DNA of 64,000 nt from an uncultured bacterium (GTDB lineage Bacteria; Verrucomicrobiota; Kiritimatiellia; CAIKKV01; CAITUY01): assembly GCA_903895695.1 (NCBI GenBank), contig CAITUY010000160.1, forward strand, positions 1-64,000. The letters run 5' to 3'. A model generated the notes under the pieces. It was not told the DNA's origin, searched no databases, and saw nothing but the letters and a program-made list of their open reading frames with translations. The stretch's first letter is position 1. Each line of letters begins with the position of its first letter. The position numbers and the translations under genes are program-made. Shown here in pieces: positions 22,411 through 41,789 of this stretch.

Positions 22411-23484
22411 TTACCGCCAGGCGAGAAACTTCTTCTCGATCGTCGCGAAGTGTTCGCGGCTTTGCACGCCGCCAAGGCTGATCCACAGACCCTCGGGGTG
22501 CAGGTTTTCCATGAAGAAGTCCAGTTCCCCCACATCCAGCCCGATCTGCAGTCCCTTGCCGGCGGCCTGGCATTTCTTGTAGACGGGCATCCAGTCGGAG
22601 GCGCGACCATGACCGGCGCCATAGACCCATTGGATGGCGTTGAGTTCCCGGATCTCCAGCAGGCTGTCCAAATGCTGTAATGCCTGCGGACCGTCCAAGT
22701 GGTAGATGCTGGCTTCGGCGTGGCGGCACTCCTCGGCAATGCCAGGCAGGAACATGTCGTCGAACATCTTCTTCGAAATCATGCAGGAAAAGTCGTTGGA
22801 AGGAACCCACCAGCGCTTCGACGAGACAATGCCCGGCCAACTGGTTATGGCCTGTCCCGCTGCCTGCAGTCTGTCGCAGTAGTAATCGAACAGCTCGCGG
22901 AACACGACGTCGATCATGGCCAGGAGTCGTTTCAACTCATCCGCCGCCTCGATCATGTCCAGGTTCATGTTCAGCGGGTCGCGGAAGGCCACGATGGCAT
23001 CGCCGCCCGGGTGCAGATCGGTGTAGCCGGTGTAGAATTTCCCCTTGCCCGCCGCCAGCAGGACGTCCGTGAAGGCATCAATCTTGCGGAAGTAATCGTT
23101 GTCCCGCGAGAACCGGATCTGCCCGACCCGTGCCCAGTCTTCAAGGTTGGGGATGGACCAGGAGGTGCTCTCGCCAAACTCCAGTTCGCAGCCGAAGAAT
23201 GCGCTGAAGATCTCGGGCCCCAAGTTGGGGGTCGCGGCAGGCAGAGCGTCCCCCAGAAAATCGTTGTTCATGGCCGAGGCCACGGCATGCCGGGCTATGT
23301 GCTCAAAATCCATCCATCGGTCACGCAACGCGGGATAGGTCTTTGCCGCCGGCCAGGGGTAGTCCGGGTTCGGTCGACTGGCCCAGGCCAGCACCACGGG
23401 CCGGTCGATGATCGCCCGACTCCAAAAGGCATCCTGACGCGCGATTCGCTTTTCCCAGTCCGGAATGTGTTCAATGGGCATCAT
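22411..23484 (-). CDS. URO-D-fold protein (uroporphyrinogen decarboxylase/methyltransferase-like)
   Basis: The 357-residue TIM-barrel protein belongs to the URO-D superfamily, as shown by the Y261-H-L-D-G-P266 motif, then A-L-Q-H-L-D-S-L-L and I-Q-W-V-Y-G-A-G-H-G near the C-terminus. The arginine-rich N-terminus of true HemE is absent, so haem synthesis is unlikely. Relatives include MtaA/CmuA-type corrinoid methyltransferases and uncharacterised proteins that accompany sugar-catabolism genes in PVC bacteria. It is the last gene of the 19-kb minus-strand cluster, 47 bases after the GH4 gene. The substrate is unknown. Confidence 0.7.
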   Translation of the reverse strand: MMPIEHIPDWEKRIARQDAFWSRAIIDRPVVLAWASRPNPDYPWPAAKTYPALRDRWMDFEHIARHAVASAMNNDFLGDALPAATPNLGPEIFSAFFGCELEFGESTSWSIPNLEDWARVGQIRFSRDNDYFRKIDAFTDVLLAAGKGKFYTGYTDLHPGGDAIVAFRDPLNMNLDMIEAADELKRLLAMIDVVFRELFDYYCDRLQAAGQAITSWPGIVSSKRWWVPSNDFSCMISKKMFDDMFLPGIAEECRHAEASIYHLDGPQALQHLDSLLEIRELNAIQWVYGAGHGRASDWMPVYKKCQAAGKGLQIGLDVGELDFFMENLHPEGLWISLGGVQSREHFATIEKKFLAWR

Positions 23485-23531
23485 CTTCGGTCGTCTCCTT
23501 CACGTTGCATTGAATCTCTTCGTGGTGCTTC

Positions 23532-24821
23532 CTACTCGAACGCCGGCAGGAAGTCGGCCTGCAGGCGAAGCATGTCGTCGAGCAGGCGCTCCGCACGGAC
23601 GATGCTGTTGACGTTGGGATCCAGCAAGAGCGCCTGCAACAGCAGGCGCCGCGAGTGGGTCCGATAGGCCTCGGTCAGAAGATCGTGAATCGTGCAATGC
23701 GGCCGCATGAACGCCGCGAACGCCTCTGGGATGGCCCCCACCTTCACGGGGTGAATGCCGGCCGCATCCACGCGCGCCGGCACTTCCACCGCTGCGTCGC
23801 GCGGCAGGTTCTCGATCCAGCCCTCCGTGTTCAGCACGTTCACGGCCGGGCGGAAGGCGTTCCGGTTAAAGGCGACGTCGCAGATGATCGGCACGGCATG
23901 CTCGCCGCTCGGTTGCAGCGCGCCGGGCGCGTCGGCCGAACACCGGCCCGCCGCATAGTCATCGACAATGTCCCGCGCCGCGGGTTCCTGCCGCAGCAAG
24001 GTGCGGCTCTCCAGGCCGTAGGGCCACTTTGCCCCGTGGAATTCAGCGCCAAACGATACGTACTCGCCGATATGATCCTCACTGGGAAAGGTGAAGACCC
24101 CGAAGATCTCGGCGAACTTGCGGAACAGCGGCGACGCCGCGGTGTCGGCCGTCGCCCGGGCCAGCGCCAGCGGCAACAGGTCTTCGCCGCTCTTGCGGTC
24201 GCGGACCCGTTGGATGCAGTAGAAATGGTTCATGCCCGCCGAAAGGATGTCCATGGCCTCAACCGGCCGATCGAGGTAGCGGCTCAGATATTCCAGCGCC
24301 GTGAAGACACCGTGGCAGATGCCGGCCGCCCGAACGCGCGTGAGATGGCAGATCGCGTGCAGGACGCGCGCCTCCGGGTTCGTAAAGTTCAGCACCAACG
24401 CCTGCGGGCAGAGTCGCTCCACGTCGCGGCAGATCGGGATCACAAGCTCGAGACTGCGCAGGGCATGGAACAGGGCGCCGGGACCGCCGTTCTCCCCGAG
24501 GACATGGTGGAAGCCGTAAGCCAGCGGCACGCGGTAGTCCTGCTCCCACAGCTCGTAGCGCCGGCAGGCCACGGCGACGATCACATAGTCGGCGCCGGGC
24601 AACGCCGCACACCGGTCGGTCTCGCTCTCGATGAGCACGTCCGAGCCCGTGTGCCCGCCCATCCGCCGGGCAAAGCGCGTCATGCGCTCCAGGGCCGCTT
24701 CGTCCTGATCCACCAGGACCAGTTTCACACCGCGACCGCGCAGTTCCGGTGCCTGCAGGATATCCGCAATCTGGCCCCGCCCGAAGCTCCGGCTTCCCGC
24801 GCCAATCAGTACGATCTTCAT
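23532..24821 (-). CDS. Glycoside hydrolase family 4 (alpha-glucosidase/galactosidase type)
   Basis: GH4 enzymes cleave alpha- or beta-glycosides through an NAD+- and Mn2+-dependent oxidation-elimination mechanism. The 429-residue protein has the Rossmann start I-G-A-G-S-R-S-F-G, N-F-T-N-P, the metal-binding C169-H170-G and G-M-N-H199-F. The wording is closest to the MelA/AglA group, so alpha-galactosidase, alpha-glucosidase or alpha-glucuronidase activity are all possible. No signal peptide is present: the enzyme is cytoplasmic. The start at 24821 follows GGAAGGAAAC; the upstream extension overlaps a pseudogene. Confidence 0.87.
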   Translation of the reverse strand: MKIVLIGAGSRSFGRGQIADILQAPELRGRGVKLVLVDQDEAALERMTRFARRMGGHTGSDVLIESETDRCAALPGADYVIVAVACRRYELWEQDYRVPLAYGFHHVLGENGGPGALFHALRSLELVIPICRDVERLCPQALVLNFTNPEARVLHAICHLTRVRAAGICHGVFTALEYLSRYLDRPVEAMDILSAGMNHFYCIQRVRDRKSGEDLLPLALARATADTAASPLFRKFAEIFGVFTFPSEDHIGEYVSFGAEFHGAKWPYGLESRTLLRQEPAARDIVDDYAAGRCSADAPGALQPSGEHAVPIICDVAFNRNAFRPAVNVLNTEGWIENLPRDAAVEVPARVDAAGIHPVKVGAIPEAFAAFMRPHCTIHDLLTEAYRTHSRRLLLQALLLDPNVNSIVRAERLLDDMLRLQADFLPAFE

Positions 24822-24990: not shown

Positions 24991-25000
24991 CTGAGAGACT

Positions 25001-28000
25001 TCACGTCACCACACGCAGGCTGAGCAGTTGATGCGCGCCGACCTTGCATTCGATGACGTTCGGCTGGAGGCGTTGCAGGCCGCCATGGCTCTGCGGCCTT
25101 TCCAGCAAATCCACCACCTCAATGGTCCGGGGCGGCTGTGCGAATTCCATGCGTACCGCACCCGAACACCCGACTGTTTCGTGCAGGCGTACGATGAAGC
25201 CTTCGCCGGTTGCCGGCAAGACCCAGGCAGGCATCACCGAAGCGAGGCCGCTCAGATGGAACGGCGGCACAGGCCGTTTGCGCGCCACGCCCGGAACGAC
25301 GACCGGCGGCACAAACAACGCCTCCGCGCGGGCCGCGGGGGACGATTCCAGACCCGTGAAACGCGCCACGGCCAGGCGAATGCAATGGGTGCCGTTGTCG
25401 GGGGATCCAAGCGGCCTGCGCTCGGCCACGCATTGGGCAGGCCACTCGTGAGCCGGGTCTCGCGGGGCCCGCAGGAGACTCAAGCCGATAAACCCATCGC
25501 GGCAGCTCACGCCGCTGGTGCGCTCCAGCAGCAGCAACAATCCATTGCGGCCCGTGTCATCACCCGTGGCAACCCAGCGCGTAGCCGGGACTTCCCATGC
25601 GGCTTCATCCCGAGGCAGCCCTGGAACCTGGGAGCGCGCCACCACGCCATAAGGCGCGCCGAAGAAAGCCTGCCGCCCGCGTGCCGATCCTGACACGGCA
25701 AACTTGAGCAACCGCGCCTGTTCGTGCCAGTCCACGGTGATGTCGAGGCGCAGACTATCGGAGCCGGCTTCGAGCACATAGTCCACCTGTACGCGACTGT
25801 GCTCGCCAAGCGGTGCCTCCCCGCGCAAAATCGCCCGCACCGGCCCGTGTTCCACGACCCGGAGCGTCATCGGACCGGCCGTTCCGATCCTGCGTTGCAC
25901 GGCGCAATGGTCGATGTCCCAGGCATCGAAATTGGGTGGGAAATCGGGATGCAGCGTGAAGTCGCAGGGAGCCGCCAGCGGCCATGCGCCGGCCGCATCG
26001 TCCACACCGATCAACCGCCCGGCCGCGTCGAACCCGGCTCGAACGACGCCGTTGTCGAGAACGTTTGCGCCAACCGGCCACGTCACGCCAGACGCCCCCC
26101 CGCCCGCCGTCGGCGTCACCACGACGGTCTCCAGCGCGCGCAAGGTCACCGACACGGGTTGTGGCTGCGCCCCGCCCGGCACGTCCACCACCGCGGTCCG
26201 CGAATACCCCAACGGGTTGAAGACCGTGCATCCGGGCCGCGACGTGTCGACATCCGCAGCTTCGGCAAGTTCGCGCTGCGCCGTGGACAGGCAGTCCACC
26301 GTGCGGCGACCCAGTTCGACACCGAGTTGCTCGTAGGCCAGGGCGATGGAGCTTCCCGGAAGCACGTCGTGAAACTGGCTGAACGCCAGGCGTTGCCACT
26401 GTTCCTCCGGCACCGGGCCGCCGCCAGTTACAACGCGCACGGCCTCCCAGGCCTGCAGGGCGGCTTCCAGGCGGCGGTGTGTCAACTTGAAGGCGGCTTG
26501 GGACGTAAAGACGCCGCGGTGGAACTCGAGGTAGAGTTCGCCTTCGTAGGTCGGCAGACTCGCGCGTTTCGCCGTAAGACGCCCGAAGAATTCCTCAGCA
26601 TTTCCCCATTTCGCCCGGGGGGTCTGCGCCAGGTTTTCCAGGCGGCGTATCTGCTCGAGCGAGGCGATGGTCGTGCCCCCGCCGCCGTCACCGACCCCCA
26701 CGTAACCCATGAGTTCGCGGCTGGCATCGCTCTGCCGGTAGTTCCGCGCGCTCCCGGCCAACGTGCCGGGAGCATCGCCTGCGGCGAACGTATGCGCGAG
26801 CACCTCCGTGCCGTCGCCCGAGCGCCAGTTGAACGAGTGATAGGGAAACACCGACGTGTCATTCCACCCCATCTTACTTGTTGCGAAATAGCGAAGCCCG
26901 GCCAGTTGCATAAGCTGGGGCAGGTTGGCAGAGAAGCCGAAGCAGTCGGGCAGCCACAGGATGCGGCTCGGCTCGCCGCGGATTTCCATGAACTTGCGCT
27001 GCCCCAGCACGAGTGCCCGTGCCAGCGACTCGCCACCGGCCAGCATGGTTTCGGTTTCAACCCATGCGCCGCCCGTCGCCTCCCAGCGCCCTTCGGCGAT
27101 GGCCTGTCGAACGTCTTCCAGAAGCGCCGGCGCGCGTCGCTGCAACACGTCGTAACTCACCGGGGACGTCCAGAGGAACCGGTATTCCGGATACTGCTCC
27201 AGCAACCGCAGCGCGGTGGCGATCGTGTGCACCGTCTTGCGCTCTCCGACCGCTTCAGGCCACAACCACACGAGGTCAAGATGCGAGTGCCCGATCAGCG
27301 TCGCCGTCATCTGCCAGCTTTCGGCCGGGTACGCGGCAAAAATCGCCTTGAGATGCTGCCCCAGTTCCGCCAGGCCCCGAAGCTCCCAGGCTTCATGCGC
27401 CTCATTGAGCAAGCGAAGCAGGTGACGCAGGATCGGATTGACCGTGCCGATCTCGGGATAGGGACCCCACGCCTTGATTGTGTCGGCCAGATTGTCCTGC
27501 CGCAAGAGATGCTCCATCCACTGAGCCAGCACTTCCAGATCCCAGTAAACTGCCCACGCCTGCTCGTCACGGGTACCTAACCTGGCGCTGTCAAAGCGCA
27601 AACCGTAGGTGTCGATCCCCCGCCCCGGATGCCATACGCAGGTCTGATAGGTGCCGCAGTCGAGCCACAGAGTGCAAGCCTGTGTGGGCACGGGAATGAT
27701 CGTGTGGGCCACGTCGAGCCCCGCGTAGGGCTTCCCGTCCAGGTACACCGTCGTTTCGCCGTTACAATCCCAGTGCAGGTACCGCGTTGCGGGCGTTTTC
27801 GCCACCGGGACATCAAGGCGAAACCAGCGCTGTTGCCAGGCGCCGGTCGGCTGCCCGAACAGTTCCCCCGCCGGAACCTCGCGCATGGACTGCCGGGTGC
27901 CTTCGTCCAGCGACAGGAACTCCACATTCACCGGGCCGCCGAACACCGGGACGGGCTCAAAATCGCGCCAAAGTCTGACGGCGAGTTGCTGCCGCAGTTT

Positions 28001-28096
28001 GGTGATACGATTTGGAACGAGATGAAGCAACGGGTTATAGGTTGGGCCATCGGGGTTGTCGCATCCGATGCGGCGGGCATTCTCCTGGGCATTCAT
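25001..28096 (-). CDS. Glycoside hydrolase family 38 alpha-mannosidase
   Basis: The 1031-residue zinc-dependent retaining alpha-mannosidase has the GH38 features in order. An N-terminal beta-domain comes first (about 1-255). The G269-H-S-H-L-D274 zinc motif follows, then G-G-A-W-V-E-T-E and the nucleophile D384 in W-L-P-D-C-F-G-F-S. A three-helix region and the long C-terminal beta-sandwich complete it. There is no signal peptide, suggesting action on imported mannosides. The start overlaps the aminotransferase stop by four bases. Downstream lies the sialidase-like fragment. Confidence 0.92.
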   Translation of the reverse strand: MNAQENARRIGCDNPDGPTYNPLLHLVPNRITKLRQQLAVRLWRDFEPVPVFGGPVNVEFLSLDEGTRQSMREVPAGELFGQPTGAWQQRWFRLDVPVAKTPATRYLHWDCNGETTVYLDGKPYAGLDVAHTIIPVPTQACTLWLDCGTYQTCVWHPGRGIDTYGLRFDSARLGTRDEQAWAVYWDLEVLAQWMEHLLRQDNLADTIKAWGPYPEIGTVNPILRHLLRLLNEAHEAWELRGLAELGQHLKAIFAAYPAESWQMTATLIGHSHLDLVWLWPEAVGERKTVHTIATALRLLEQYPEYRFLWTSPVSYDVLQRRAPALLEDVRQAIAEGRWEATGGAWVETETMLAGGESLARALVLGQRKFMEIRGEPSRILWLPDCFGFSANLPQLMQLAGLRYFATSKMGWNDTSVFPYHSFNWRSGDGTEVLAHTFAAGDAPGTLAGSARNYRQSDASRELMGYVGVGDGGGGTTIASLEQIRRLENLAQTPRAKWGNAEEFFGRLTAKRASLPTYEGELYLEFHRGVFTSQAAFKLTHRRLEAALQAWEAVRVVTGGGPVPEEQWQRLAFSQFHDVLPGSSIALAYEQLGVELGRRTVDCLSTAQRELAEAADVDTSRPGCTVFNPLGYSRTAVVDVPGGAQPQPVSVTLRALETVVVTPTAGGGASGVTWPVGANVLDNGVVRAGFDAAGRLIGVDDAAGAWPLAAPCDFTLHPDFPPNFDAWDIDHCAVQRRIGTAGPMTLRVVEHGPVRAILRGEAPLGEHSRVQVDYVLEAGSDSLRLDITVDWHEQARLLKFAVSGSARGRQAFFGAPYGVVARSQVPGLPRDEAAWEVPATRWVATGDDTGRNGLLLLLERTSGVSCRDGFIGLSLLRAPRDPAHEWPAQCVAERRPLGSPDNGTHCIRLAVARFTGLESSPAARAEALFVPPVVVPGVARKRPVPPFHLSGLASVMPAWVLPATGEGFIVRLHETVGCSGAVRMEFAQPPRTIEVVDLLERPQSHGGLQRLQPNVIECKVGAHQLLSLRVVT

Positions 28097-29205
28097 CTTG
28101 TCATGTACTCCTCGAACCTCGCGAGCGCGTCAGGCAGGTTCCTGCGGCCGTAGCCCACGCGAAATGCGCGATACCCTTTTCCATAGAGAGTTCCCGGCAA
28201 CAGCAGAACCCCCGTCTCCGCAATGAGACCGGCGCAAAACGTGTTGACCGCGCCCTTCAGCAGCGCGGGAAACGCGATGGAACCGGCCTTGGGACGATAC
28301 CAGCCGAACCTGTCCTTGTGTGAGCCGAAAAAGGCATCAAGCCTGTCGAGATTGTCCCGGATGATAGCCAGGTTGCGGCCTGCAATGGCGTCGGCATGGT
28401 GTAACGCGAGTGTTGCCAGAAACTCGCTCGGCGCACTGTTGCAGAGCGTCGTGTAGTCTTTAAACGTTGCCAGTTGGCGGTGGAGTCTTCTGTCGCGTGT
28501 GGCAGTCCAACCGATCCGCAGCCCGGCGAGGCCGTACGTCTTTGACATTACCCCCAGCGACACGGCGCGCGGGTTCACATCGGCCATGGCAGGCAGACGG
28601 TCGGCCGGGTCGAGTTCCAGACCACGGTACACCTCGTCGGAAAGGATGACGAAACCATGATGTTCGGAAAGTGCCGAAAGCTCGCTCACAAACTTAGGCG
28701 ACGGCAGAAACCCGGTCGGATTGTGAGGAAAATTGACGACCACCACTTTGGTGCGCGCGGTGAGCGACTTCTCAAGGACCCCAAGATCCAGTTCCCACGC
28801 ACGCGCCGGGTCGCCGCGCCATTCCGTCACCTGCGCGCCAAGGCTGCGAGCGACTTCGCCAAGCGATTGGTAGAAAGGCGAATGCACGACGACGTGGTCG
28901 CACGACTGAAGCGCGACGTTCATGAAGTTGAAAATGGCCTCTTCAGCCCCGGCGTGCACGAGAACCTGATCGGCTGCTACGTGCTCGTACAACGTGGCGA
29001 TGGCCTGTCGAAGCGCGGGGTTGCCGGGTGTCTCGGTGTAACCGAGTCGAAGACCCAGGAACTGCTCCTGGGCTCCCGGTTCGAACGCCAGAAGGTCCTG
29101 CAGCGCCATGCTCTCGCAGTCCGACGAGCACAACAAATACGGAGCAGAGAACTCGTGCTTGGCGAAGTAACGTTCGAGCCTGAATGGAGGAAGGATGATC
29201 TTCAT
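28093..29205 (-). CDS. PLP-dependent aminotransferase, class I/II
   Basis: The 370-residue fold-type I enzyme has the Schiff-base lysine in S-K222-T-Y-G-L-A-G-L-R-I-G-W, Asp190 in S-D-E-V-Y and the N-P-T-G segment (162-165). Substrate specificity cannot be told from sequence; position in a polysaccharide cluster hints at an amino sugar or keto-acid step, but that is inference. It ends in ATGA overlap with the GH38 gene and starts 48 bases after GH28. Confidence 0.85.
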   Translation of the reverse strand: MKIILPPFRLERYFAKHEFSAPYLLCSSDCESMALQDLLAFEPGAQEQFLGLRLGYTETPGNPALRQAIATLYEHVAADQVLVHAGAEEAIFNFMNVALQSCDHVVVHSPFYQSLGEVARSLGAQVTEWRGDPARAWELDLGVLEKSLTARTKVVVVNFPHNPTGFLPSPKFVSELSALSEHHGFVILSDEVYRGLELDPADRLPAMADVNPRAVSLGVMSKTYGLAGLRIGWTATRDRRLHRQLATFKDYTTLCNSAPSEFLATLALHHADAIAGRNLAIIRDNLDRLDAFFGSHKDRFGWYRPKAGSIAFPALLKGAVNTFCAGLIAETGVLLLPGTLYGKGYRAFRVGYGRRNLPDALARFEEYMTR

Positions 29206-29253: not shown

Positions 29254-30744
29254 TCATCGTGATCTATCATCTCTCCACAGGATCGACGAGGCCGCATCGG
29301 CATCGCATGCCGGGCATCCCAGTTCGCTGGCGCAAAGACCGCGCCCGCTGACCGTCACCTCGGCATCGCGCGCCCACAGGACGGAGAATGGCACCCGGCG
29401 CGTTCCGTTGCGGACCTCCGCCTCATGCCCTTTCCAGAAGGCCGACATCAGCCGGTGGGGAGATTCGAACAAGGCCCATGTCCCGACCGGGAATGACGGC
29501 CAGCGCACGCGCAGCCCATCAACGACGACATCCCGCGCATGTTGAATCACGAACGCCGCGTTGGCCGCGCGGGCCTCCGGGTAGTCGCCCGGGATGAAGC
29601 CCGTCGATTGGGCGTCCCGGAACGGCGTGGCGTCGTCGATCACCGGGAAACGCAGCCTGACGTCACTGAACCGGATACTCTCCACCGGACAGCCGGGCTT
29701 GCCGACGACCGTGATGCGGCCATCCGTGGCGATGTCCAGCCCCGTGAACGAGACGTCGCGGATGACACTGGGCCGCGCCAGCGGCCGATCCTTGCCATAG
29801 TCGGGATGGCCGGCGTGCAACGACGCCTTGAAGACGTTCGGCCGATCGACCTGAATAACCTCGATGGCCCGATTCGCCGGCCAGCCACTGTCGGTGCAGG
29901 CCACGACGTTCGTGACGCGCACGCGTTCGATCGTGCAACCCTCGACGGCGCGCAGATCGATCACGCGCGAACACCGCGGAATGACCAGGTTGGTAATGAC
30001 GATATCGCGGAAGTCCTCGCGCGACTCGTAGCCGATTCGCACGCCGACGCAACTCGTGCGCAGGATGCAGTCGCTGATGGCGATCCGCTCGCAGGACCGG
30101 CTGTACTCACTGGTCTTGAGGGCAATGGCATCGTCGGCCGTGTCGATGTCGCAACCGTGGATGATCACGTCATGGCAGCCGGTCATATCGATCCCGTCGC
30201 AGTTCGGCCCGAACCAGGTGTTACGGATCACGATGCCCTCGATGCGGCTATGGTCGCAATCATGCAGGTGCAAGGTCCAGCCGGCCGATTCCTCGATCCG
30301 CACGCGCTCGACTAACACGTGCTTGCAGCGCACGAGTTCGATCATGGGACTGACGCGTTCGAGCTTTGCCGTCCAGAAATGCCAGTCGGAGGGACGGTTC
30401 GGTTCCCAGAACGCCGGCCCGTTCCCACGGATGGTACCGGCGCCGGTGATCGCAATCCGGTCGCAGTTCTCGGCCAGTATCAGATGCCACGGCGTGATGT
30501 CGTTGTGGTGCCCCCACACCCGGGTGGCATAGTCCGTCAGATGCGTGGACCCGAGCAGCACGGCTCCTTCATCGAGCTGCAGGGTCACGCCGGACTTCAA
30601 CTCGACTGTGCCGGTGAGGAACGTGCCCCGCGGCACGACCACGCGTCCGCCCCCCGCGGCAGATGCCGTGGCAACGGCCTGATTGATGGCCCGGGTGTTG
30701 AGCGTCGAACCGTCAGCCACGGCACCATATTCAGTTATCAGCAC
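29254..30744 (-). CDS. Glycoside hydrolase family 28 (polygalacturonase-like)
   Basis: GH28 enzymes hydrolyse polygalacturonan or rhamnogalacturonan with a right-handed beta-helix fold. The 496-residue protein has the N-terminal pectate-lyase-like start (Y-G-A-V-A-D-G), N181-C-D-G-I-D186 in place of the usual N-T-D, and the catalytic pair D204-D205 in A-D-D-A-I-A-L-K. The usual G-H-G motif is not obvious; C-V-G-V-R-I-G stands there, so exo- or unsaturated-galacturonide specificity is possible. There is no signal peptide. It starts with GTG inside a short heptamer repeat and lacks a clear ribosome site. Confidence 0.85.
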   Translation of the reverse strand: MLITEYGAVADGSTLNTRAINQAVATASAAGGGRVVVPRGTFLTGTVELKSGVTLQLDEGAVLLGSTHLTDYATRVWGHHNDITPWHLILAENCDRIAITGAGTIRGNGPAFWEPNRPSDWHFWTAKLERVSPMIELVRCKHVLVERVRIEESAGWTLHLHDCDHSRIEGIVIRNTWFGPNCDGIDMTGCHDVIIHGCDIDTADDAIALKTSEYSRSCERIAISDCILRTSCVGVRIGYESREDFRDIVITNLVIPRCSRVIDLRAVEGCTIERVRVTNVVACTDSGWPANRAIEVIQVDRPNVFKASLHAGHPDYGKDRPLARPSVIRDVSFTGLDIATDGRITVVGKPGCPVESIRFSDVRLRFPVIDDATPFRDAQSTGFIPGDYPEARAANAAFVIQHARDVVVDGLRVRWPSFPVGTWALFESPHRLMSAFWKGHEAEVRNGTRRVPFSVLWARDAEVTVSGRGLCASELGCPACDADAASSILWRDDRSR

Positions 30745-32113: not shown

Positions 32114-33978
32114 GGAGAACCCCTTTCGTCATCATCCCGCAAGTCTCCGCCCGGATAACGGCACAATGTACCACCGCGCTTAGGGTCGAACACTGAAGGA
32201 ATGGCGGCACCGTAGGGCCGACGCCAGAAGAGATGCGACCCGAGACGCACATCGAGTCCGCCCGCTGACTCCGGCGTGGGCGGAGTGCCGCGCGCGATAG
32301 TCATGACGGCGTAGATGACCGTATGGGCGGTATGCGGAAATCGTGCCTGAACAAACGGGCCGCCAGGATAAAGCTCCGTGCTGCCACCCTGGTAAGTCCG
32401 GCGAGAGTCGCGCATGCGGTGCAGAGTCAGGTCAGCAGGACGCGGCCCCAGAAAGCGAACCATCCCGCGCGCGCCGTCCGCCGCCGCCAAATCGAAGCCC
32501 GCGCCATCCGCGTGCAGGCTGGCAGCCAGGTCGGTGCCGAACGCCAGGTTCCAATGCCAGTCACGCGAGAGGTGGTCGTCGATGGCGTCCAGGATGGCCA
32601 GCGTCACGGTCGCTCCGCCGACGCCGCTGAAATCCACCGCCAGCCAGCGTTCGGCGTAGCCGATCGTCGGCCGGCGCAGATCCATGCCGAACACCCCACC
32701 AGCCGAGCCCGACTCGTCCGCGATGACGGCCCCGCAGCCGAAGGGTTTGGCCCGAGGGCTGTCGACAGCGGTGACGATGCTCTGGTACTCAGCCTCACCG
32801 CGCCCCTGCCCGCCTCCAACAATCCAGTCATGGCTCAGCGCCATGCAACGCAGCGAGCCGGCATCATCGTGGGCGTGTCCGCCGACGTGCGTCACCCGCG
32901 CGTACGCGCCGACGATGGCATCGTCGCCATCCTGGTAACGGTTGCGGAACAGTCCCAATCCCTGGCGCGAATCCGTGAAATGCGTCGGCAAAATGCCATT
33001 GGGTTCGCAAGCGGGCACATCGTAGGGGTAATAGAGCAGAGAGAAGAAGAGGCCCGCGTGATCCGGGTTGAAGAGGCCGTCGCCTTGAATGCCGTTGAGC
33101 CGGTCATACATCCAACGCAGAGCGCCGACCTGTTCCCGGGGCGCCACCGCCAGCAGCAGCACGCTGGAGTTACGGTTGCACCAGTCATCGCCGTCATCGT
33201 TCCATGACAACTTGACACCGACTCGGCCATCCCGCCGGCGGGCGGCTACGCTGGCATAGAGCGAGGCCGCGGCCTGGCGGAGGCCCGGGAATTCGGCGAG
33301 CCAGTCGGTTCCAAGCACGTTGCGGACGGCAAGCAGGCACGGCAGCCAGAACGCGGCCGGGTACAGTTGATAGCCGAGCCCCTCGTGATAGAGCCCGCGA
33401 TCGCCATGGTGCATGAGGAAGGGTTTCACGCGCCCGACAGCCCAGGCCATGTCGTCGGCCAGGTCATACGCACCGTCGGGCGTCGCACCCGGCAGGCCAT
33501 GGATCGCCAGAGCCGCCATCGCCGCACCCGCGTACGACACGGCCCAGTGGTTGTTCGTGACCGTGTGCGGATCGCCATGTTTGAGGTCAGCGACGCGGAA
33601 TCCGCGGCACAAGGCGAAGAGCGCGCGATTCAGGGCCAACCGGCGCGCCTCGTCGAGTTGCGCATAGCAGGCGTCATGGACAGCGCAACCGATCAGCGCC
33701 ACGTTGGCCCGGCCCAAGTTGCCGCTGTCGGGATCGACCATTGCCAGAAAGGCATCGCACGCGGTCAAGGCGTGCGCGGGTGCCCCAGTAGCGATGGCGA
33801 GCACGGCGTGAGCGATAGTGCGCTCGCCCTGCACGGTATCCGCGGACCCGGCGGCAACGACGCGTTCCGCCCGAGCAACAATCGCCCTCGCCGTGGGCTC
33901 GCCCGCGGCAAGGTGCCGTGCCACCGTCTCACGGCGTCCGGGCGTCAGCCAAAGCGGCGTTGACAGATCCGTCGGCAT
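32110..33978 (-). CDS. Heparinase II/III-like polysaccharide lyase
   Basis: The 622-residue protein has an alpha/alpha-toroid N-terminal half, with N142-N-H-W and the Tyr203 region (E-G-L-G-Y). A beta-sheet C-terminal half follows, with H364-V-G-G-H-A-H370-D-D-A-G-S. That histidine cluster is the metal and catalytic signature of heparinase II/III and PL15/PL17-type alginate lyases. Such enzymes beta-eliminate uronic-acid-containing glycans. There is no signal peptide. It overlaps its neighbours by one base (TGATG) upstream and four bases downstream. Confidence 0.78.
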   Translation of the reverse strand: MPTDLSTPLWLTPGRRETVARHLAAGEPTARAIVARAERVVAAGSADTVQGERTIAHAVLAIATGAPAHALTACDAFLAMVDPDSGNLGRANVALIGCAVHDACYAQLDEARRLALNRALFALCRGFRVADLKHGDPHTVTNNHWAVSYAGAAMAALAIHGLPGATPDGAYDLADDMAWAVGRVKPFLMHHGDRGLYHEGLGYQLYPAAFWLPCLLAVRNVLGTDWLAEFPGLRQAAASLYASVAARRRDGRVGVKLSWNDDGDDWCNRNSSVLLLAVAPREQVGALRWMYDRLNGIQGDGLFNPDHAGLFFSLLYYPYDVPACEPNGILPTHFTDSRQGLGLFRNRYQDGDDAIVGAYARVTHVGGHAHDDAGSLRCMALSHDWIVGGGQGRGEAEYQSIVTAVDSPRAKPFGCGAVIADESGSAGGVFGMDLRRPTIGYAERWLAVDFSGVGGATVTLAILDAIDDHLSRDWHWNLAFGTDLAASLHADGAGFDLAAADGARGMVRFLGPRPADLTLHRMRDSRRTYQGGSTELYPGGPFVQARFPHTAHTVIYAVMTIARGTPPTPESAGGLDVRLGSHLFWRRPYGAAIPSVFDPKRGGTLCRYPGGDLRDDDERGSP

Positions 33979-36836
33979 CAGTTCCTGGCCGCCAGCGGCG
34001 CGAGATCGACCTCGGCCAGCACCTTGTTGGCGTTCACGTCGGCGTTGACCAGCGAGTAGCCGTACGTCTTGTCGCCGAACGTGCAGCCGTAGAACAGGTA
34101 CGGATGCACCCAGCCGTTCGGCGGCGCCAATTCGTGCGCCGCCGGGTTCGTGTCCCAGTTCAAGTTCACCTTCCCGTCCTCCTTGACCTTGACGGTGCCG
34201 TCAGGCTTCGGCATGTCCGCGGAAGGAGCGTTCTTGCCCTCCTGGTACCGCTGCAGCGTCTTCCGGTACATCTCGTTCTGCGAGTTCGCATCGTTTATCC
34301 ATGCCACCGGCCCGTTGGCGTGGACGTTCATCAGGATGTGGCCGTTCGCACGCGCCGTCTGCACGTTGCGAACCCCTCTCAGCACGACCGGTGCTCCGGC
34401 GGGGTCGGCCAGCGCCACGTCAACAGTGACGTCCTGTACCTGTTGGGCCGCGCCCGTGTAGCCGCACTTCACCTTCTTGCCCTTGGTCACGATCTTCGTC
34501 CGCAACAGGGCCGCCAGTTCACAATAGCCGTAGTCGACCGCCGGCTGCGTGGCGTTCCCGCATTCCAGGAACTCGCACTGATCCACCATCACGATATACG
34601 GCCTGAAGGCCAGCGTCGAGTTACCGCCCATGAAGTCAATGCCCGGCCCGTCGATGTTCCTGAAGGAGCAGTTGTAGAGCCCGCCGTGGATCAGGTTGTT
34701 GTGCTTGATCGAGATACCCGCCTTCTTCTGCCCCACGAACTCGGCGTTCAGGCAAAGCCATTTGTCCAGCATCCCGTTGTTCATGAAGATGCCGTAGTCG
34801 CCGGTGTTGTAGAATCTCAGGTTGACGTATTTGTTCTGGTCGTGCTCGGCGCCGCCCATGACCTCAGGGTCGTCGAAGCCAACGTGCATGCCGGCGAAGG
34901 TCTGGTCGCGGAAGGTGATGTTATAGTAGTTCTGACCGGCAATGTACGATTTGGCCAGCAGCCCGTCCGGGGCCCCGTGGTCGACGCCGGTGACGGCGAT
35001 GCCCACGCGGCCGCCTTGAACCGCGAAGTTCGCCAGGCCGCACGCGCCGATCTGCTTGATGGCCGTGATATCGCCCGTGAACTTCAGCACGGTCTTGTCT
35101 GGACCGGCGCCCAGCAGGCCCCCGTTGCCGTCAAAGTAGAGCGTGTGGCTCAAGAGAAACGTGCCGGCCGGCACGTCGAGTCGGGGCCGGCGGACCCTGG
35201 TCTCGCGTTTGGCAACAGTGGGATCGATGGGATACAGCCGGTCGTACGCCGCCTTATCGTTGCTCTTCAGAACCGCCTCGTGCAGCCGGGCCACCTCGTC
35301 CGCCTTGAGCCCGAACATGACCTGGGCGAACGCGTCATCGGACGGTTTCTTCCCGGTTGGATCCGCACCCGCGTCCAGAAGGGCTTTCCCGAAATCGGGC
35401 TCCCACGTAAAGTACAGCGGCCGAAACGTCTTGGGCGCATCCGTGGCCGGGATCGAGGGCGGCGGGGGCAACTTGCCCTTCACACCGTCGGTACCCTTGG
35501 TCAGGTCCTGACCGGCGAACATGAAGGTCTCCTCGTGTGTGGCGTTGATCGGCCACCAGTTATCGCGCCCGGCCTTGATCAAGGCCTTCAGTTTGTCGAC
35601 GTTTTCGGGCGTGTCCGGCAAGCCTGACCGCTTGTTCCGGTCCTTGACCCACTTGGCGGCGTTCTTATCGGCAAAAGCCGCGGCGGCCTCGATGTTGGCG
35701 CCAGCCGGCATGTTGTTGAGCGGCGTGTACGCGAACCTAAGTATGTCCTTCCCGTCCGCGCCCTTGGTCTCGTAGTCGAACTCGGCGCCCCACATCTGAA
35801 GTTTAGGGTCGCTGTTGACGAACGATTCCTCGTACGAATTCGCGAAGTCGGTGAACAGGTGCACGATATTGCCGCTGCCGCCCTCGATCGTGAGCGCGTG
35901 GGAAGGCATCGCCGCCTGCGCCCCACCGCGCGTGCCGGGGAAGATGCGCCGCAGGCCAAGCTGTACGTTGCGGCAATTCTTCAGGTAGTAACAGCCCGGG
36001 CCTTGCGACGAACCGCGCTCGGTCGCGCCGTGATACATGGCCAGGCCGTCGCAGTTCTCCAGCATGACGCCCGTACCGGGGTTGCCGTAATTCGTCTCGA
36101 TCATCAGATAGACGCGGGTGTTCTTGCCCCCACCCTTCAAGTCGAAAACGCACTGGCAATTCTTCTTCCACCACTCCGTAGCCGGGTCTTTTAGATGGGC
36201 GTTGTAATCGGCGAACGTCCAGTTGTACGAGAACCAGAGGAACAGCGTGTTATCGACGCGAGCCGACGCCTTAAACGCATAGGAAGCCCAGCCGTTGACG
36301 GCCGCGATGAACGCCGAGTCCGCCACGTCCCCATTGATGCGGCTGATATTGCCGAACAGCATGGTCAGGTTCCGCAAGGGCTCGTTGCCGGCTGCGCCGG
36401 GTTCGATTGTGACGCCGGTGTTGTACGTCTCCAGGCCCTTCTGACCACCGCCCAGAATGACGTTCCCGCCGCTGATGGCGACATTGTTTCGCACCCGTCG
36501 CAAATCCAGCTTCATATCGTGCGCGCCACCCCAGCCCAGGTGGATCGCCCCGCCCTCGGGCAACCGCTCGGCAAGCGCCACCACCAAGTCGGCGAGTTGC
36601 GGGTTCAGTTTGCTCTCGCGGCCGTCAGCCGACTTGCTCTCGTACTGGTCGCCCAGGATCGACCGGGCCGCCTTGTCGGCATTGAGGTAGACTGTGCCAT
36701 CCGCCAACTTCTGGAACGCGTACTGATTGACCTTGGACGCCAGGCCGCCGTCCAGTGCCGCCGCCGCCGTCCCCAAAGTAAGTGCCAGCGCCAGCGCGCC
36801 CGCTATAGCCATCCCGCCTGCACCCATCTTCTTCAT
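33978..36836 (-). CDS. Secreted parallel beta-helix protein
   Basis: The 952-residue protein is the only one in this cluster with a clear signal peptide (M-K-K-M, hydrophobic core, T-A-A-A-A). The middle and C-terminal parts read as a pectate-lyase-superfamily right-handed beta-helix: P-A-G-T-F-L-L-S-H-T, then repeated short strands such as L-A-N-F-A-V-Q-G-G and F-R-N-I-D-G-P-G-I-D-F. A glycan-cleaving or glycan-binding role is inferred; no catalytic triad can be named. It overlaps both neighbouring genes and so is fixed within the operon. Confidence 0.72.
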   Translation of the reverse strand: MKKMGAGGMAIAGALALALTLGTAAAALDGGLASKVNQYAFQKLADGTVYLNADKAARSILGDQYESKSADGRESKLNPQLADLVVALAERLPEGGAIHLGWGGAHDMKLDLRRVRNNVAISGGNVILGGGQKGLETYNTGVTIEPGAAGNEPLRNLTMLFGNISRINGDVADSAFIAAVNGWASYAFKASARVDNTLFLWFSYNWTFADYNAHLKDPATEWWKKNCQCVFDLKGGGKNTRVYLMIETNYGNPGTGVMLENCDGLAMYHGATERGSSQGPGCYYLKNCRNVQLGLRRIFPGTRGGAQAAMPSHALTIEGGSGNIVHLFTDFANSYEESFVNSDPKLQMWGAEFDYETKGADGKDILRFAYTPLNNMPAGANIEAAAAFADKNAAKWVKDRNKRSGLPDTPENVDKLKALIKAGRDNWWPINATHEETFMFAGQDLTKGTDGVKGKLPPPPSIPATDAPKTFRPLYFTWEPDFGKALLDAGADPTGKKPSDDAFAQVMFGLKADEVARLHEAVLKSNDKAAYDRLYPIDPTVAKRETRVRRPRLDVPAGTFLLSHTLYFDGNGGLLGAGPDKTVLKFTGDITAIKQIGACGLANFAVQGGRVGIAVTGVDHGAPDGLLAKSYIAGQNYYNITFRDQTFAGMHVGFDDPEVMGGAEHDQNKYVNLRFYNTGDYGIFMNNGMLDKWLCLNAEFVGQKKAGISIKHNNLIHGGLYNCSFRNIDGPGIDFMGGNSTLAFRPYIVMVDQCEFLECGNATQPAVDYGYCELAALLRTKIVTKGKKVKCGYTGAAQQVQDVTVDVALADPAGAPVVLRGVRNVQTARANGHILMNVHANGPVAWINDANSQNEMYRKTLQRYQEGKNAPSADMPKPDGTVKVKEDGKVNLNWDTNPAAHELAPPNGWVHPYLFYGCTFGDKTYGYSLVNADVNANKVLAEVDLAPLAARN

Positions 36837-38875
36837 CGGTCGCTTCCTTCCTTTCGTACCTGCGCCGCCGTGTACTCCAATCCGCTCTCGTCAGCCCGCA
36901 TTTCATAGCCGTCGCGGCCGTCCGTCACGACCATTCGGCCATGCCCGATTTTGAGATAGGGACTGTTGTACACGCCGCCCCGGCACCAATCGTCCCAATC
37001 CACGCGCCGCCCGTCAACGGCCGCCCGACACCGTAGTCCGCGGGCATCGTGCGTCACCTCCAGCTCCGTTCCGTCCATGGTGCGGTAGACGACCCGCCCC
37101 GAGGGCGCGAAATCGTTACGGTCGAGCCGTGCCTGGCTGCGGAGTGCGGTCTCGAATGCATCCAGTGTTCCCCATGCCGTGGACGGAAGGACTTCGACGA
37201 CAAACCCAGTGGGCAGTCCCGGGAATACGACGATGTCGTACTGGTTCAGGACGGCCCGGTCTGGCCCGTTTCCGGTGACGGGTGCCAGCAGAAAGGGCGT
37301 GCCGCCGAGGGGCCAGACCGCCACATGAGCCGAGCCGGCATCGATCAGCACGAGGTCGTCTCTCACGCGCAACGATGCCGCCCTTCTGGGCACGAAGAGC
37401 CACGTCTCCGCCGCTTGCGGTGCTGCCGCCCAGCGGCTCTCCACGGTCAACTCCCGTGGCAGCCGTTCGAGCGGGCCGTCGGCCGCCGCCGTGGGCGCGG
37501 TGATCAGTATGAGGCCGTTACGGTGCTGGAACACCTGGTCGTACGGGCTGTGTCCTTGCGGCGAACGAAACCGCGGCTGGGCTCCGCCGATGACGATCGG
37601 CCCGTCGCCTCCCCGCGTTGCCAAAGACCACACGGTCTGCTGCGCGGGATTGTCGGACTCCGTCAGCGCCACGCTGCCCAATGCGAAATCCCGATCGCAG
37701 TAGAAGGTCTCCTGGAACCGGTTGGGCCGGTCCATGTGATACGACGGCCGCACCATGCGCGCCTCGAAGGGCAACGGCACGTTCTTGGCGATAAGATTGC
37801 AGAGCACGCGGTTCGGCCGGTAGCGAGTGGTGGCCTGATGCAGGGACAACTGCCGGCGGTCCGGGACGGGGCACGGCCCGGCGGGACAGAATGCCTCCAG
37901 GAGCAGATCCGTCCCGCCCCGGCACGAGCCATCGCTGAAACCCCGTTTCGACGCCCCGGCCAAAACGCCCGCGAACGACTTGAGCCCGTAGGTCGCGAAG
38001 TAGTAGTCGAGCGTCATGCGGGCCAGTTCGCGGGTCTCCGGCAGAGGCGCAAAGTCGAACAGATTCCAGTAGGCCAGCATGTTGTACTGGTAGTAGGTGA
38101 CTGAATCGTACTCGCCGTTGCCGGTCACGAGCAATCGTCGCAGGTAGTCGCGTAGCGCGCCGGCGGTCCGGGCCGCGGCCTCGGACGCGGGGTGGCCGGA
38201 GACACGCGCGTCTGCGCCGAAGAGTTGGGCGTAGAGCAATCCCGTGGTCCGCCACATAGTCTTGTGATTCTCCGTCCCGCCGTTGGTCGGATTGCCGCCG
38301 AGCAGGAAGCCCTCTTCGCCCACGAGGTCGAACGGAACGGCGGGCGGGTTCGCATGTTCCCGTGGCCCGTCGGACGGATGCCGCGATTCGCGGTAAGCGC
38401 CCACGGCGGCGCGGAACGCAGCGTGCCAGTCGGGGCTCATTTTCGGTCCCACCAGCCCGAGGAAACGCGCCCAGTTAACGGCGGCGAAGTGGTACTGCTG
38501 GTTGAGATTGCCGGGAATCGCGACGAACGCCCGGGCGGCCGCGTCGTCGGGATGCAGCATGAGTCGTGCGGTCACGACCGGAAGGTCGTACTTGAGAGGG
38601 TCGCCCCCGAACCGCGTAACGCGCCCCTCGGCGTCGCGCTCTTTGGGCCCGAAGTAGCCCGTCGGCCCCTGCCGGTACGGCCGGCCGGTGTACGGCGAGC
38701 GGATATCGTCGCCTTCCACGGACCACGTGCGCACGGGACGGCCGGTATCGGGGCACACGGACGCGGCCTGCGATCGCCGCGCGTACGGTTCCGCCGCCCA
38801 GGCTTCGATCACGCCTGCCATACGTTCCCGGAACCCCGCCTCGTCCGGATACGTCTCGATGTCCCAAGGGTTCAT
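36833..38875 (-). CDS. Unrecognised 680-residue protein, possible carbohydrate-active enzyme
   Basis: I do not recognise a named family. The N-terminal 450 residues are helical with aromatic-rich turns. A motif N-P-T-N-G-G-T201-E-N-H204-K-T-M resembles the T-E-N-H element of (alpha/alpha)6-barrel glycosidases and lyases. The C-terminal 230 residues are beta-rich with a final G-R-V-V-Y-R segment. That two-part layout parallels heparinase-like lyases. There is no signal peptide. It is overlapped by the beta-helix gene (ATGA) and lies 7 bases from GH130, so it is part of the catabolic operon. Confidence 0.6.
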   Translation of the reverse strand: MNPWDIETYPDEAGFRERMAGVIEAWAAEPYARRSQAASVCPDTGRPVRTWSVEGDDIRSPYTGRPYRQGPTGYFGPKERDAEGRVTRFGGDPLKYDLPVVTARLMLHPDDAAARAFVAIPGNLNQQYHFAAVNWARFLGLVGPKMSPDWHAAFRAAVGAYRESRHPSDGPREHANPPAVPFDLVGEEGFLLGGNPTNGGTENHKTMWRTTGLLYAQLFGADARVSGHPASEAAARTAGALRDYLRRLLVTGNGEYDSVTYYQYNMLAYWNLFDFAPLPETRELARMTLDYYFATYGLKSFAGVLAGASKRGFSDGSCRGGTDLLLEAFCPAGPCPVPDRRQLSLHQATTRYRPNRVLCNLIAKNVPLPFEARMVRPSYHMDRPNRFQETFYCDRDFALGSVALTESDNPAQQTVWSLATRGGDGPIVIGGAQPRFRSPQGHSPYDQVFQHRNGLILITAPTAAADGPLERLPRELTVESRWAAAPQAAETWLFVPRRAASLRVRDDLVLIDAGSAHVAVWPLGGTPFLLAPVTGNGPDRAVLNQYDIVVFPGLPTGFVVEVLPSTAWGTLDAFETALRSQARLDRNDFAPSGRVVYRTMDGTELEVTHDARGLRCRAAVDGRRVDWDDWCRGGVYNSPYLKIGHGRMVVTDGRDGYEMRADESGLEYTAAQVRKEGSDR

Positions 38876-38882
38876 GTGTCGT

Positions 38883-39827
38883 CTACCAGTTCCTGCACGC
38901 GTGAATGAGGTCGCTCAGCCGCCCCGTCGCCACGCATTGCACCGTGTCGGCGGCCCCGTAGTGCACGAGCACCGTCTCGTCGTCCGCGACAATCATGCTG
39001 CAGGGAAAACATACATGCTCCACGAGGCCGCGCAGCTCGTAGTCGGCCTCGGGATAGAGAATGGGATGCTTCGTGCAGTGGAGCACCTTCCAGGGTTCGT
39101 CACGGTCCAGAAGGGCCGCACCGACACTGTACTCGCGCGTCGTACAGTTGTTCATGATGCCATGGAACAGGATCAGCCAGCCCTCGGCGGTGAGGAATGG
39201 AACCGTCGACGCCCCCAACCCGCTGTAGCAGAAGTTCCACAGATCGGTCGACTTCAGCACTTCGTAGGAATCCCCCCAATGGATCAAGTCCGGCGAATGC
39301 GACAGCCAGATGTTGCCCTTGCCGCTGCCCGGGATGTTGGGCCGCTCCAGCCGCATGTACCGGCCGTCGGCACGCTTTCGCGGAAAGATCACCATGTTGC
39401 GGTTGTCGGGGACGTTGACAAAGTTGACGAACTCCAGCGACTTCAGGTCGGCGGACCGAAACAACGCCACCCGGCAGTTCTGGTCGCCCTCGCAGGCAAT
39501 CAACACCTTGTACTCGCCGTCGATCCACGTGATGCGCGGGTCGTAGTAGACGGACCGACTGACACTCTGCCAAAGCTCATCGACAGGCATCTCGAATGGC
39601 TCCGGGCGCGGCGCGAAATGAATGCCGTCGGTGCTGTCCGCTCCCCAGAGCAACGTCTTGTGATTGAGCTGATTGACGCGGCAGAGCATCACGTAACGGC
39701 CAGCCGCGGTCTTGATCGCGGCGCTGTTGTACACGGCGCGCATCCTGACTGGGAAATCGGCCGCCGTGAGGACCGGGTTATCGGGATGGCGGGTAAGTAC
39801 GGCCCTGTCGATTCTGGCATAGTCCAT
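38883..39827 (-). CDS. Glycoside hydrolase family 130 (mannoside phosphorylase type)
   Basis: The 314-residue five-bladed propeller enzyme has the GH130 wording Y-Y-D96-P-R-I-T-W-I-D-G-E-Y-K-V, R-L-E-R-P-N-I-P and W-N-F-C-Y-S-G. Most GH130 enzymes phosphorolyse beta-1,2- or beta-1,4-mannosides to mannose 1-phosphate; some are hydrolases, and the two cannot be separated here. Together with GH38 it points to mannose-containing substrates. It is cytoplasmic, with 7 and 12 bases to its neighbours. Confidence 0.87.
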   Translation of the reverse strand: MDYARIDRAVLTRHPDNPVLTAADFPVRMRAVYNSAAIKTAAGRYVMLCRVNQLNHKTLLWGADSTDGIHFAPRPEPFEMPVDELWQSVSRSVYYDPRITWIDGEYKVLIACEGDQNCRVALFRSADLKSLEFVNFVNVPDNRNMVIFPRKRADGRYMRLERPNIPGSGKGNIWLSHSPDLIHWGDSYEVLKSTDLWNFCYSGLGASTVPFLTAEGWLILFHGIMNNCTTREYSVGAALLDRDEPWKVLHCTKHPILYPEADYELRGLVEHVCFPCSMIVADDETVLVHYGAADTVQCVATGRLSDLIHACRNW

Positions 39828-39839
39828 GTCGGTATTCCT

Positions 39840-41789
39840 CTAAGTCAACATGCGCTGCGCCCGCAGCGCCAACTCCGGGCTGGGCGGCGTGCCGAAAATG
39901 CGCTGCCGCAACGGGAGATACCACTCACGCCATCGCGGATGATCCGGTCCCGCCAGATGCAGGTCCCACAGCCCCTGCGTGGCGGCAACCACCGCCGCCA
40001 CAGTTTCCGCCCGCACGGCTCCGGCGCGGTCTTCGTCCCGGCAGGCGACCAGCGCTCGGTAGAGCTCCGCCGCCGCCGCAAACAGGCGCGCCGGGAACGC
40101 CACGGCATCATCGAACACGGCTGCCTGCCCCGATGAGATCATGACCGCGCCGACGGCGTCCGCCGCCGCGACCGTGCGCCGGGCCGCCGCCACCACGACC
40201 TCGGCATGGGCAGCCGAGGATCCGAGATCCGGGAAACAACGCAGAATGCTGTCGGTATCGCGGAGGCGCACCAGATCATCAGGCGCAGGCGCGTCGTCAT
40301 CGGAGATCTCCCGGAGCAATGGGTAGATATGATAGAGCAGCAACTTGACGTAACCTCGTTCCTTGCCGGACGTAAAGGTGGCCTCGTTGAGCGCCAGTAG
40401 CGCATCCATATAGGCGGCGAACGGTTTGGCTGTGCCGGACCCCAAATGCTCCTCGGCCCAGGCCTCGACGAAGGCGCCGGCGTCAAAGGTTTCGGGCGAC
40501 CAGGCCGCCGCCGCCGCGGCCTCCACCATGAGCATAAAGGGCCGGAACGACTGGCCGTTCACGCGCACCCACTGCGTGGCGTTCCGACCTGCCAGATGGC
40601 GCAGGGCATCGCCCAAACGCTGCACGTAGGGATTCTGCACGGTGTGGTCGAGCCAGTAACCGGCGTGAATATACACGGCGCCCTGCTGGCCGGGCGGCAG
40701 CTCCAAGCCGGCTTCGAACACCGCGTACCCGCGATCCGCGTGCTCCAGCACCGCCCGTGCTGCATCGCCGGAGTCAAACTCGGCCAGCGACCGGCCGTAC
40801 GTGTTCAGAGCGATGCGCTTGGCCGGCGCCAATTCGCAAATGATGGATGCCAAGGCGATGGCGATCTCCTTCTCGATCGCCACGCGTCCGCGCGGGGCGC
40901 ACTGCTCGCAGCGGCAGCGGTAGTTGCCATCCCAGAGCGGGTCGCAGATCCCGATTTCCAGCACGTCCGCGTGGCGCAGCGGCGTGGCGGTCAGGTAATA
41001 ACGCCAGATCTCTTTCCATTCGGCGGCATACCTCGACCAGCACGTATGGTCCGTCGGCAGCCGCCGGAACGGCCAGGCCAGGCCCATCGGTGCCGTCAGC
41101 ATCAAGCCCCGCTCGTGGGCGTAGTCCAGTACGCGCCCCAGGAGTTCGGCGTCCAACTCGTACCGGGCATTGGCGCGGTAGTAGTCCCAGTACACAAACT
41201 CCGACCGACCGGCCGAGTCGAACACCTGCAAGCCGCTGTAGCCCAGCGCCACCAGTGTATCGATGAGTTCCTTCCAGTGCGGCCACTCCAGTTGCAGGCG
41301 CCGGCCGGACCAATTAATGAGTTCGTCCGCGTCGTTTTCGTAAAACACGCGCTCCCGGAAGACAGGTGCCGGCACGGTCACGTCGCCCGCCACCAGGGCG
41401 GGGTCGGCCGGCGTGATCGGCACCCCCAGCCAGTACGCCAGTGGGTCGAGCCGCAGCCACTGCCGCCGGAAACGCTCCACGGCATACGCCACGCCCAGTG
41501 TTCCATGGCCCAGCAGCGTAACACGCCCGGCTTCAACGACCACCCGGTGCGCCTGAGCGCCGTCCAAGCCGTGGGACTGAAAACGCGCCAGTTCCGCCGG
41601 CAACGGCCGCGTGACATCGGCCAGATCGATGCGCAACCGGGGCGGAACGCCATAGGCCAGTGCAAGTCCCGCCTGCAAACGGTCCACGGCATGCCGCACG
41701 CCCGGGATGACTTCGAGGCCGGCGGCCCGGAGGTCGACACCCGGATGAAGATTCATACAAGGAGTGGATTCGTTGATCATCTGTAGCAT
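39840..41789 (-). CDS. GH67/GH115-type alpha-glucuronidase-like protein
   Basis: The 649-residue protein has an N-terminal GH20b-like alpha/beta domain (A-V-D-R-L-Q-A-G-L-A-L-A-Y-G, G-H-G-T-L-G-V-A-Y-A-V-E). A TIM barrel follows from about residue 145 (E-R-V-F-Y-E-N-D, W-K-E-L-I-D-T-L-V-A-L-G-Y). The layout is that of alpha-glucuronidases and GH20/GH84 relatives, and a xylanase is encoded nearby. A C292-x-C-x-x-C297 cluster is an odd addition. The first gene of the cluster, it has no clear ribosome site; ATGs at 41789, 41780 and 41756 are all possible. Family assignment is tentative. Confidence 0.55.
   Translation of the reverse strand: MLQMINESTPCMNLHPGVDLRAAGLEVIPGVRHAVDRLQAGLALAYGVPPRLRIDLADVTRPLPAELARFQSHGLDGAQAHRVVVEAGRVTLLGHGTLGVAYAVERFRRQWLRLDPLAYWLGVPITPADPALVAGDVTVPAPVFRERVFYENDADELINWSGRRLQLEWPHWKELIDTLVALGYSGLQVFDSAGRSEFVYWDYYRANARYELDAELLGRVLDYAHERGLMLTAPMGLAWPFRRLPTDHTCWSRYAAEWKEIWRYYLTATPLRHADVLEIGICDPLWDGNYRCRCEQCAPRGRVAIEKEIAIALASIICELAPAKRIALNTYGRSLAEFDSGDAARAVLEHADRGYAVFEAGLELPPGQQGAVYIHAGYWLDHTVQNPYVQRLGDALRHLAGRNATQWVRVNGQSFRPFMLMVEAAAAAAWSPETFDAGAFVEAWAEEHLGSGTAKPFAAYMDALLALNEATFTSGKERGYVKLLLYHIYPLLREISDDDAPAPDDLVRLRDTDSILRCFPDLGSSAAHAEVVVAAARRTVAAADAVGAVMISSGQAAVFDDAVAFPARLFAAAAELYRALVACRDEDRAGAVRAETVAAVVAATQGLWDLHLAGPDHPRWREWYLPLRQRIFGTPPSPELALRAQRMLT

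Follow-up and report, generated by a model that had tools for sequence, protein, structure and literature searches.

The hemicellulose utilization locus of Geobacillus encodes an intracellular GH10 enzyme (XynA2) and AguA together with linked ABC transporters (PMC4194401, excerpt), and the pit system of Sphingomonas sp. A1 consists of a superchannel, binding proteins and an ABC importer (PMC8286568, excerpt). The CUT loci of freshwater Verrucomicrobia are described with a TonB receptor, inner-membrane carriers and GHs of which most are extracellular (PMC5615132, excerpt). For Verrucomicrobiota MAGs, the excerpted account reports no SusCD genes and five loci that carry putative sugar transporters (PMC8857213). 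How polysaccharide fragments are taken up without SusC/D in the Planctomycetes-Verrucomicrobia group is stated as open in print (excerpts of PMC8857213, PMC5520146 and PMC11131199).

Here, we describe a glycan-degrading operon on contig C160 (95,002 bases), the first 64,000 bases of which form the window analysed. With a probability of roughly 0.6, we read this operon as the cytoplasmic half of a glycan pathway, with its importer encoded at an unlinked site. Carrier-less, signal-less operons of this kind name enzymes that their substrates can reach only by crossing both membranes, and may thereby serve as a guide to the carrier.

Operon layout and gene content

Eleven tightly packed ORFs lie on the minus strand at 22411-41789. 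Neighbouring ORFs overlap by 4 bp at I/H (36833-36836), G/F (32110-32113) and D/C (28093-28096) and by 1 bp at H/G (33978), and the other gaps are about 5-60 bp, apart from one of about 180 bp between C and B if the GH4 gene starts at ATG 24821 and not at the listed GTG 24941. The packed minus-strand arrangement described in the initial annotation is thus borne out by coordinates, overlaps and short gaps. From the first gene of the run, the features are:

Gene K, 39840..41789, minus strand: first gene of the run, 649 aa, weakly GH115-like, no export signal
Gene J, 38883..39827, minus strand: GH130 (Pfam 8.8e-43), no signal
Gene I, 36833..38875, minus strand: 680 aa, no family, no signal
Gene H, 33978..36836, minus strand: 952 aa, beta-helix-like, the sole product with a Sec-type signal (rule 2.3)
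Gene G, 32110..33978, minus strand: 622 aa, putative heparinase II/III- or DUF4962-like lyase, from motifs read by eye
Gene F, 30773..32113, minus strand: GH10 (Pfam 7e-31), no signal
Gene E, 29254..30744, minus strand: GH28 (Pfam 1.9e-15; PDB 5olp, 3jur), no signal
Gene D, 28093..29205, minus strand: fold-type I PLP aminotransferase-like (Pfam 7.3e-41)
Gene C, 25001..28096, minus strand: GH38 alpha-mannosidase, Ams1 type (Pfam 7.2e-67)
Gene B, 23532..24821, minus strand: GH4 (Pfam 7.8e-36, 8.9e-35), likely start ATG 24821, listed ORF to GTG 24941
Gene A, 22411..23484, minus strand: 357 aa, no assigned family (no Pfam and no PDB match)

Pfam confirmed six products (GH4, GH38, aminotransferase I/II, GH28, GH10 and GH130), and a firm family is missing for 5/11 (K, I, H, G and A). 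Among the families proposed initially, GH10, GH28, GH38, GH130 and GH4 therefore stand, but K matches GH115 only weakly, below the Pfam cut-off (E 0.0037, 17.3 bits vs 27), and G is heparinase-like by motifs only, namely NNH and GHAHDDAGS, recognised by eye. A PDB search with K returned no match. G had no Pfam or NCBIfam match, its best PDB match being a DUF4962 protein (E 0.039), and single-sequence structure models of K and G were unusable (mean pLDDT 37.8 and 34.3, respectively). For I, there was no Pfam match, and a PDB search with a 15-row family profile was also empty; H gave weak Pect-lyase and Beta_helix matches, below the Pfam cut-off. The best NCBIfam matches of D (GntC, PRK07324 and VioD) were all below cut-off. 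Nearest in PDB were TM1225, UhgbMP and mannooligosaccharide phosphorylases for J (1vkd, 4udg, 5ayd), Ams1 and other alpha-mannosidase chains for C, a GH4 set including alpha-galacturonidase 3fef for B, and xylanases, intracellular IXT6 among them, for F. The families GH4, GH130 and GH38, which are exo-type or phosphorolytic, usually act in the cytoplasm; GH4 requires NAD and GH130 phosphorylases require phosphate. With J near mannoside phosphorylases and C near Ams1, the term depolymerases that had been applied to the set does not suit these three. Gene A was tried as a URO-D-type protein and rejected, as hhalign against five such proteins of the same genome gave a probability of 1.15% and Pfam gave no match. 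Nothing convincing emerged when operator-like repeats were sought near the operon and near a GntR-type regulator (53442-54965), and a promoter scan of 22200-42100 called none, fewer than in shuffles, which makes the scan uninformative.

At 64001-95002 (L173, L174), the same contig and strand carry a carbohydrate-type cluster with signals in 6/9 proteins tested; this secreted set includes one protein with a GH42-type stretch (E 7e-11) as well as beta-helix-like and discoidin-like proteins, named by eye. Just upstream of the operon and on its strand, the window holds two large fn3-like-repeat proteins (42000-51364), the longer with a signal. The listed start of the 905-aa fn3-type ORF is probably incorrect, since this ORF runs in a different frame over part of one at 50745-51866 that by eye resembles ADP-ribosylglycohydrolase. 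At 19859-20471, there is a small plus-strand ORF pair that by eye looks like a ribbon-helix-helix antitoxin and a PIN-type toxin.

Export signals and homologue families

Sec signals were called with a rule that takes a basic residue followed by an uncharged 12-residue stretch with a mean hydropathy of at least 1.9. All ATG, GTG and TTG starts between the upstream stop and a point 39 codons into each ORF were scored, and ATG, GTG, TTG and CTG starts were listed separately with their hydropathy. The rule was right for 8/8 controls (secreted-type called 4/4, cytoplasmic 0/4). It is simpler than SignalP: by eye, it missed L023, L142, L153 and L154, and it called L119 inside its domain. Across the alternative starts, this rule called a signal in 1/11 products, which agrees with the initial view that the beta-helix protein (H) alone has one, and the other ten look cytoplasmic, judging by sequence. 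GHs that lack a signal are common, since signals are present in 61% of those of Pontiella agarivorans (PMC10880615, excerpt).

For GH10, none of the seven closest full-length homologues of F (L033, L145-L150) has a signal, and their alignments begin at query residue 7 or 8. Of the 13 loci examined for GH10, three look secreted, one by the rule and two by eye, and these three belong to a more distant group. For GH28, we examined the 34 best-scoring loci, a part of all matches, and the rule called 10 of these. In the GH28 tree (35 rows, with L119 relabelled as without and L142 as with a signal), E sits in a starred 13-row clade (98/99), all of whose members are without a signal, and the sister to this clade is a gene of genome G114 (99/98). 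As the closest homologues of F and E in the class also have no signals, the GH10 and GH28 enzymes here are best taken as inherited intracellular subfamilies. The family of I behaves differently. A signal is present in 14/16 homologous loci examined, and the two exceptions are I itself and its closest relative (58%, genome G114). Gene I thus looks like a cytoplasmic variant in a family that is otherwise mostly secreted, and it alone looks unusual among the products; a cytoplasmic protein with secreted kin falls outside a simple account of inherited cytoplasmic enzymes and counts against our preferred reading.

Homologues were unevenly spread among 345 genomes of the class (146 for I), with the source genome included in the counts at the thresholds used. 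E was found in 116/345, F in 13/345, J in 4/345 and I in 17/146, and K only in its own genome (1/345, E<=1e-20). Six genomes (G034, G046, G066, G083, G109 and G114) have strong matches to all three of E, F and I. At these thresholds, F, I and K are absent from all eight other genomes of the same family, and the two same-family genomes with E homologues carry the secreted type. Copies of J that are 72-75% identical occur in four other genomes (genome_contigs records), one of which, labelled Chthoniobacter, has adjacent GH38, GH10 and GH130 genes; around the copy in L034, the neighbours do not resemble glycan genes by eye. This patchy distribution, with F, I and K missing from the rest of the family at these thresholds and J copies in other genomes, fits an operon that is probably accessory and horizontally assembled.

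Carriers on the contig, in the genome and in relatives

Along the 95-kb contig, no sugar-carrier-like multi-pass membrane protein is encoded. Only three ORFs of at least 100 aa have four hydrophobic segments or more: MntP, a RodA-type protein and, next to MreC, a 5-TM ORF. These lie at 1.5-16.9 kb. The initial annotation had found no transporter in the cluster, and this holds for the whole contig: past the end of the window, at 64001-95002, where a transporter adjacent to the operon might have lain, there is no ORF of this kind. Pfam likewise gave no match to a SusC/SusD pair among the eleven products. The source genome (250 contigs, 94.56% complete) does contain carriers, with 17 BPD_transp_1 (ABC permease), 21 MFS_1 and 2 SSF matches and four SBP_bac_1 matches (three above cut-off); contigs C44 and C4 each have an SBP followed by two permeases. 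There are two TonB barrel matches, both on other contigs. That the route is not encoded here is therefore correct for the window, but the genome has unlinked MFS, ABC and SSF carriers. A second signal-less cluster lies on contig C122 (L093, 42001-62000), where an MFS gene is found amid three URO-D genes, GH2 and a GHL10-like gene. In L082, a URO-D-type protein also occurs near a GH4 gene.

In relatives, some homologues have carriers nearby. G114 has a DctP-DctQ-DctM set with a GH28 homologue downstream of it on the same strand; in this genome, the nearest relative of I adjoins an AEC-type carrier and a beta-helix protein without a signal. The TRAP carrier, linked to this one GH28 homologue, is missing from the source genome (0 DctM matches), which counts against our preferred reading. 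Near a GH28 homologue in G046 are an MFS carrier, a GH120 match and a sulfatase; no clear counterpart of this MFS carrier was found among the carrier loci fetched from the source genome (best E 0.03). In both G046 and G083, a 10-TM protein without a Pfam family adjoins the GH10 homologue (L162 8159-9202 and L164 6677-7633), with a 4-bp overlap in G083, and this protein represents a candidate carrier family. Most homologue neighbourhoods examined have no obvious carrier adjacent, which also weighs against the preferred reading and indicates that carrier linkage is only occasional. The import of large fragments, as initially suggested, is not favoured by these data; F and E have closest relatives that are signal-less as well, and some homologues lie beside small-solute-type carriers. 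Two relatives also have sulfatases without export signals clustered with GH28 and GH43 (L171, G046:C44, 2323-7382; L172, G083:C44, 7699-17351). Sulfatases are usually secreted.

Interpretation and comparison with known systems

Our preferred reading, a cytoplasmic half-pathway, starts from what the locus and genome hold: the gene content, the missing signals, no linked carrier and carriers at unlinked sites. Carriers adjoining homologues in some relatives, the C122 cluster with its MFS gene and the secreted proteins further along the contig also speak for it. In the proposed scheme, secreted proteins would cut the polymer outside the cell or in the periplasm, the candidates being H, perhaps the secreted proteins at 64-95 kb, and others elsewhere. 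Short mannose-/uronate-containing oligosaccharides would then take a porin-like route through the outer membrane and be brought across the inner membrane by an unlinked carrier (MFS, CUT1-type ABC or SSF). In the cytoplasm, they would be trimmed by the GH10, GH28, GH115-like and lyase-like enzymes, GH38 and GH4 would remove end sugars, and GH130 would phosphorolyse beta-mannosides. The carrier, the direction of flow and co-regulation are what we infer within this scheme, as is the substrate; mannose-/uronate-containing oligosaccharides are a guess from the enzyme families. Most likely, the importer is sited elsewhere in the genome and the arrangement is a common one that is only mildly surprising. 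By itself, the operon is in line with the usual view of how oligosaccharides are processed in the cytoplasm. The GH10 and GH28 subfamilies without signals and the change of I from secreted to cytoplasmic offer concrete starting points for further work.

Several other explanations were weighed. Large fragments or whole polymer might be imported by a dedicated, unlinked, pit-like machine and cut in the cytoplasm, which would suit endo-type families without signals (GH10 and perhaps the lyase-like G) and the signal-less I in a family with 14/16 secreted loci; for Planctomycetes, polysaccharide uptake by an 'unknown mechanism' is in print (excerpts of PMC5520146 and PMC11131199). We consider this unlikely, given that secreted carbohydrate-type proteins are encoded on the same contig and that the linked carriers of relatives (TRAP, MFS, AEC) are of types that usually handle small solutes. 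About as doubtful is an operon that recycles or remodels the cell's own capsule, exopolysaccharide or glycoprotein glycan and so needs no importer. The absent linked carrier, the large fn3-type proteins encoded just upstream and a GH38 and GH130 pair reminiscent of N-glycan-type mannoside processing (J has UhgbMP among its nearest PDB matches) would all fit such a role. However, Pfam and NCBIfam detected no glycosyltransferase among the eleven genes, the GH28, GH10 and GH115-like content better fits foreign plant- or algae-type glycans, and some E homologues in relatives adjoin sulfatases, GH43 or GH120 matches.

That the enzymes leave the cell by a Sec-independent path (non-classical secretion, lysis or vesicles) and act outside seems improbable. 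Such export would account for the missing transporter only; the NAD need of GH4 and the phosphate need of GH130 suit the cytoplasm, as known for these families, and no hydrophobic C-terminal sorting signal was visible by eye in the product sequences. A protein compartment enclosing the enzymes, as the initial annotation had offered, is very improbable. Verrucomicrobiota do have compartments for fucose and rhamnose metabolism (PMC8857213, excerpt), but the shell family (PF00936) has no match in this 94.6% complete genome, whereas the control search was positive in E. coli and Synechococcus. Returning to a cytoplasmic role, a bolder extension, which we find rather unlikely, is that the class has an inherited cytoplasmic glycan-cutting set, comprising the GH10 and GH28 subfamilies and, in two relatives, the signal-less sulfatases with GH28 and GH43. 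This set would act on sizeable sulfated or uronated oligosaccharides brought in by an undescribed importer; the present operon would be the most complete such cluster seen here, and I would mark a secreted enzyme that has been recruited to the cytoplasm.

As co-directional GH genes with a phosphorylase-type enzyme and without signals, the eleven-gene set resembles an intracellular oligosaccharide-processing GH cluster, for which the candidate importers are unlinked, and with no SusC/SusD pair in the locus it is not a PUL of the Bacteroidota type. A literature search on an intracellular Thermotoga exopolygalacturonase returned no useful match. Compared with the described systems, as far as the excerpted accounts go, the locus shares clustered glycan-degradation genes with the CUT loci of freshwater Verrucomicrobia and is their opposite on three points, having no TonB receptor, no linked carrier and signals in 1/11 products. 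Co-located GHs without SusC/D are also a feature of the Verrucomicrobiota clusters of PMC8857213, but, unlike the five loci noted there, this operon has no sugar transporter. It resembles the Sphingomonas sp. A1 pit system in that polysaccharide-cutting enzymes are predicted to reside in the cytoplasm, whereas no superchannel, binding protein or ABC importer was found alongside the present genes. Unlike the Geobacillus locus, which has ABC transporters inside it, none is linked here and the enzymes are of mixed mannose/uronate type, but the operon is like the intracellular arm of that locus, in which a signal-less GH10 and accessory glycosidases process imported oligosaccharides in the cytoplasm, as they probably do here.
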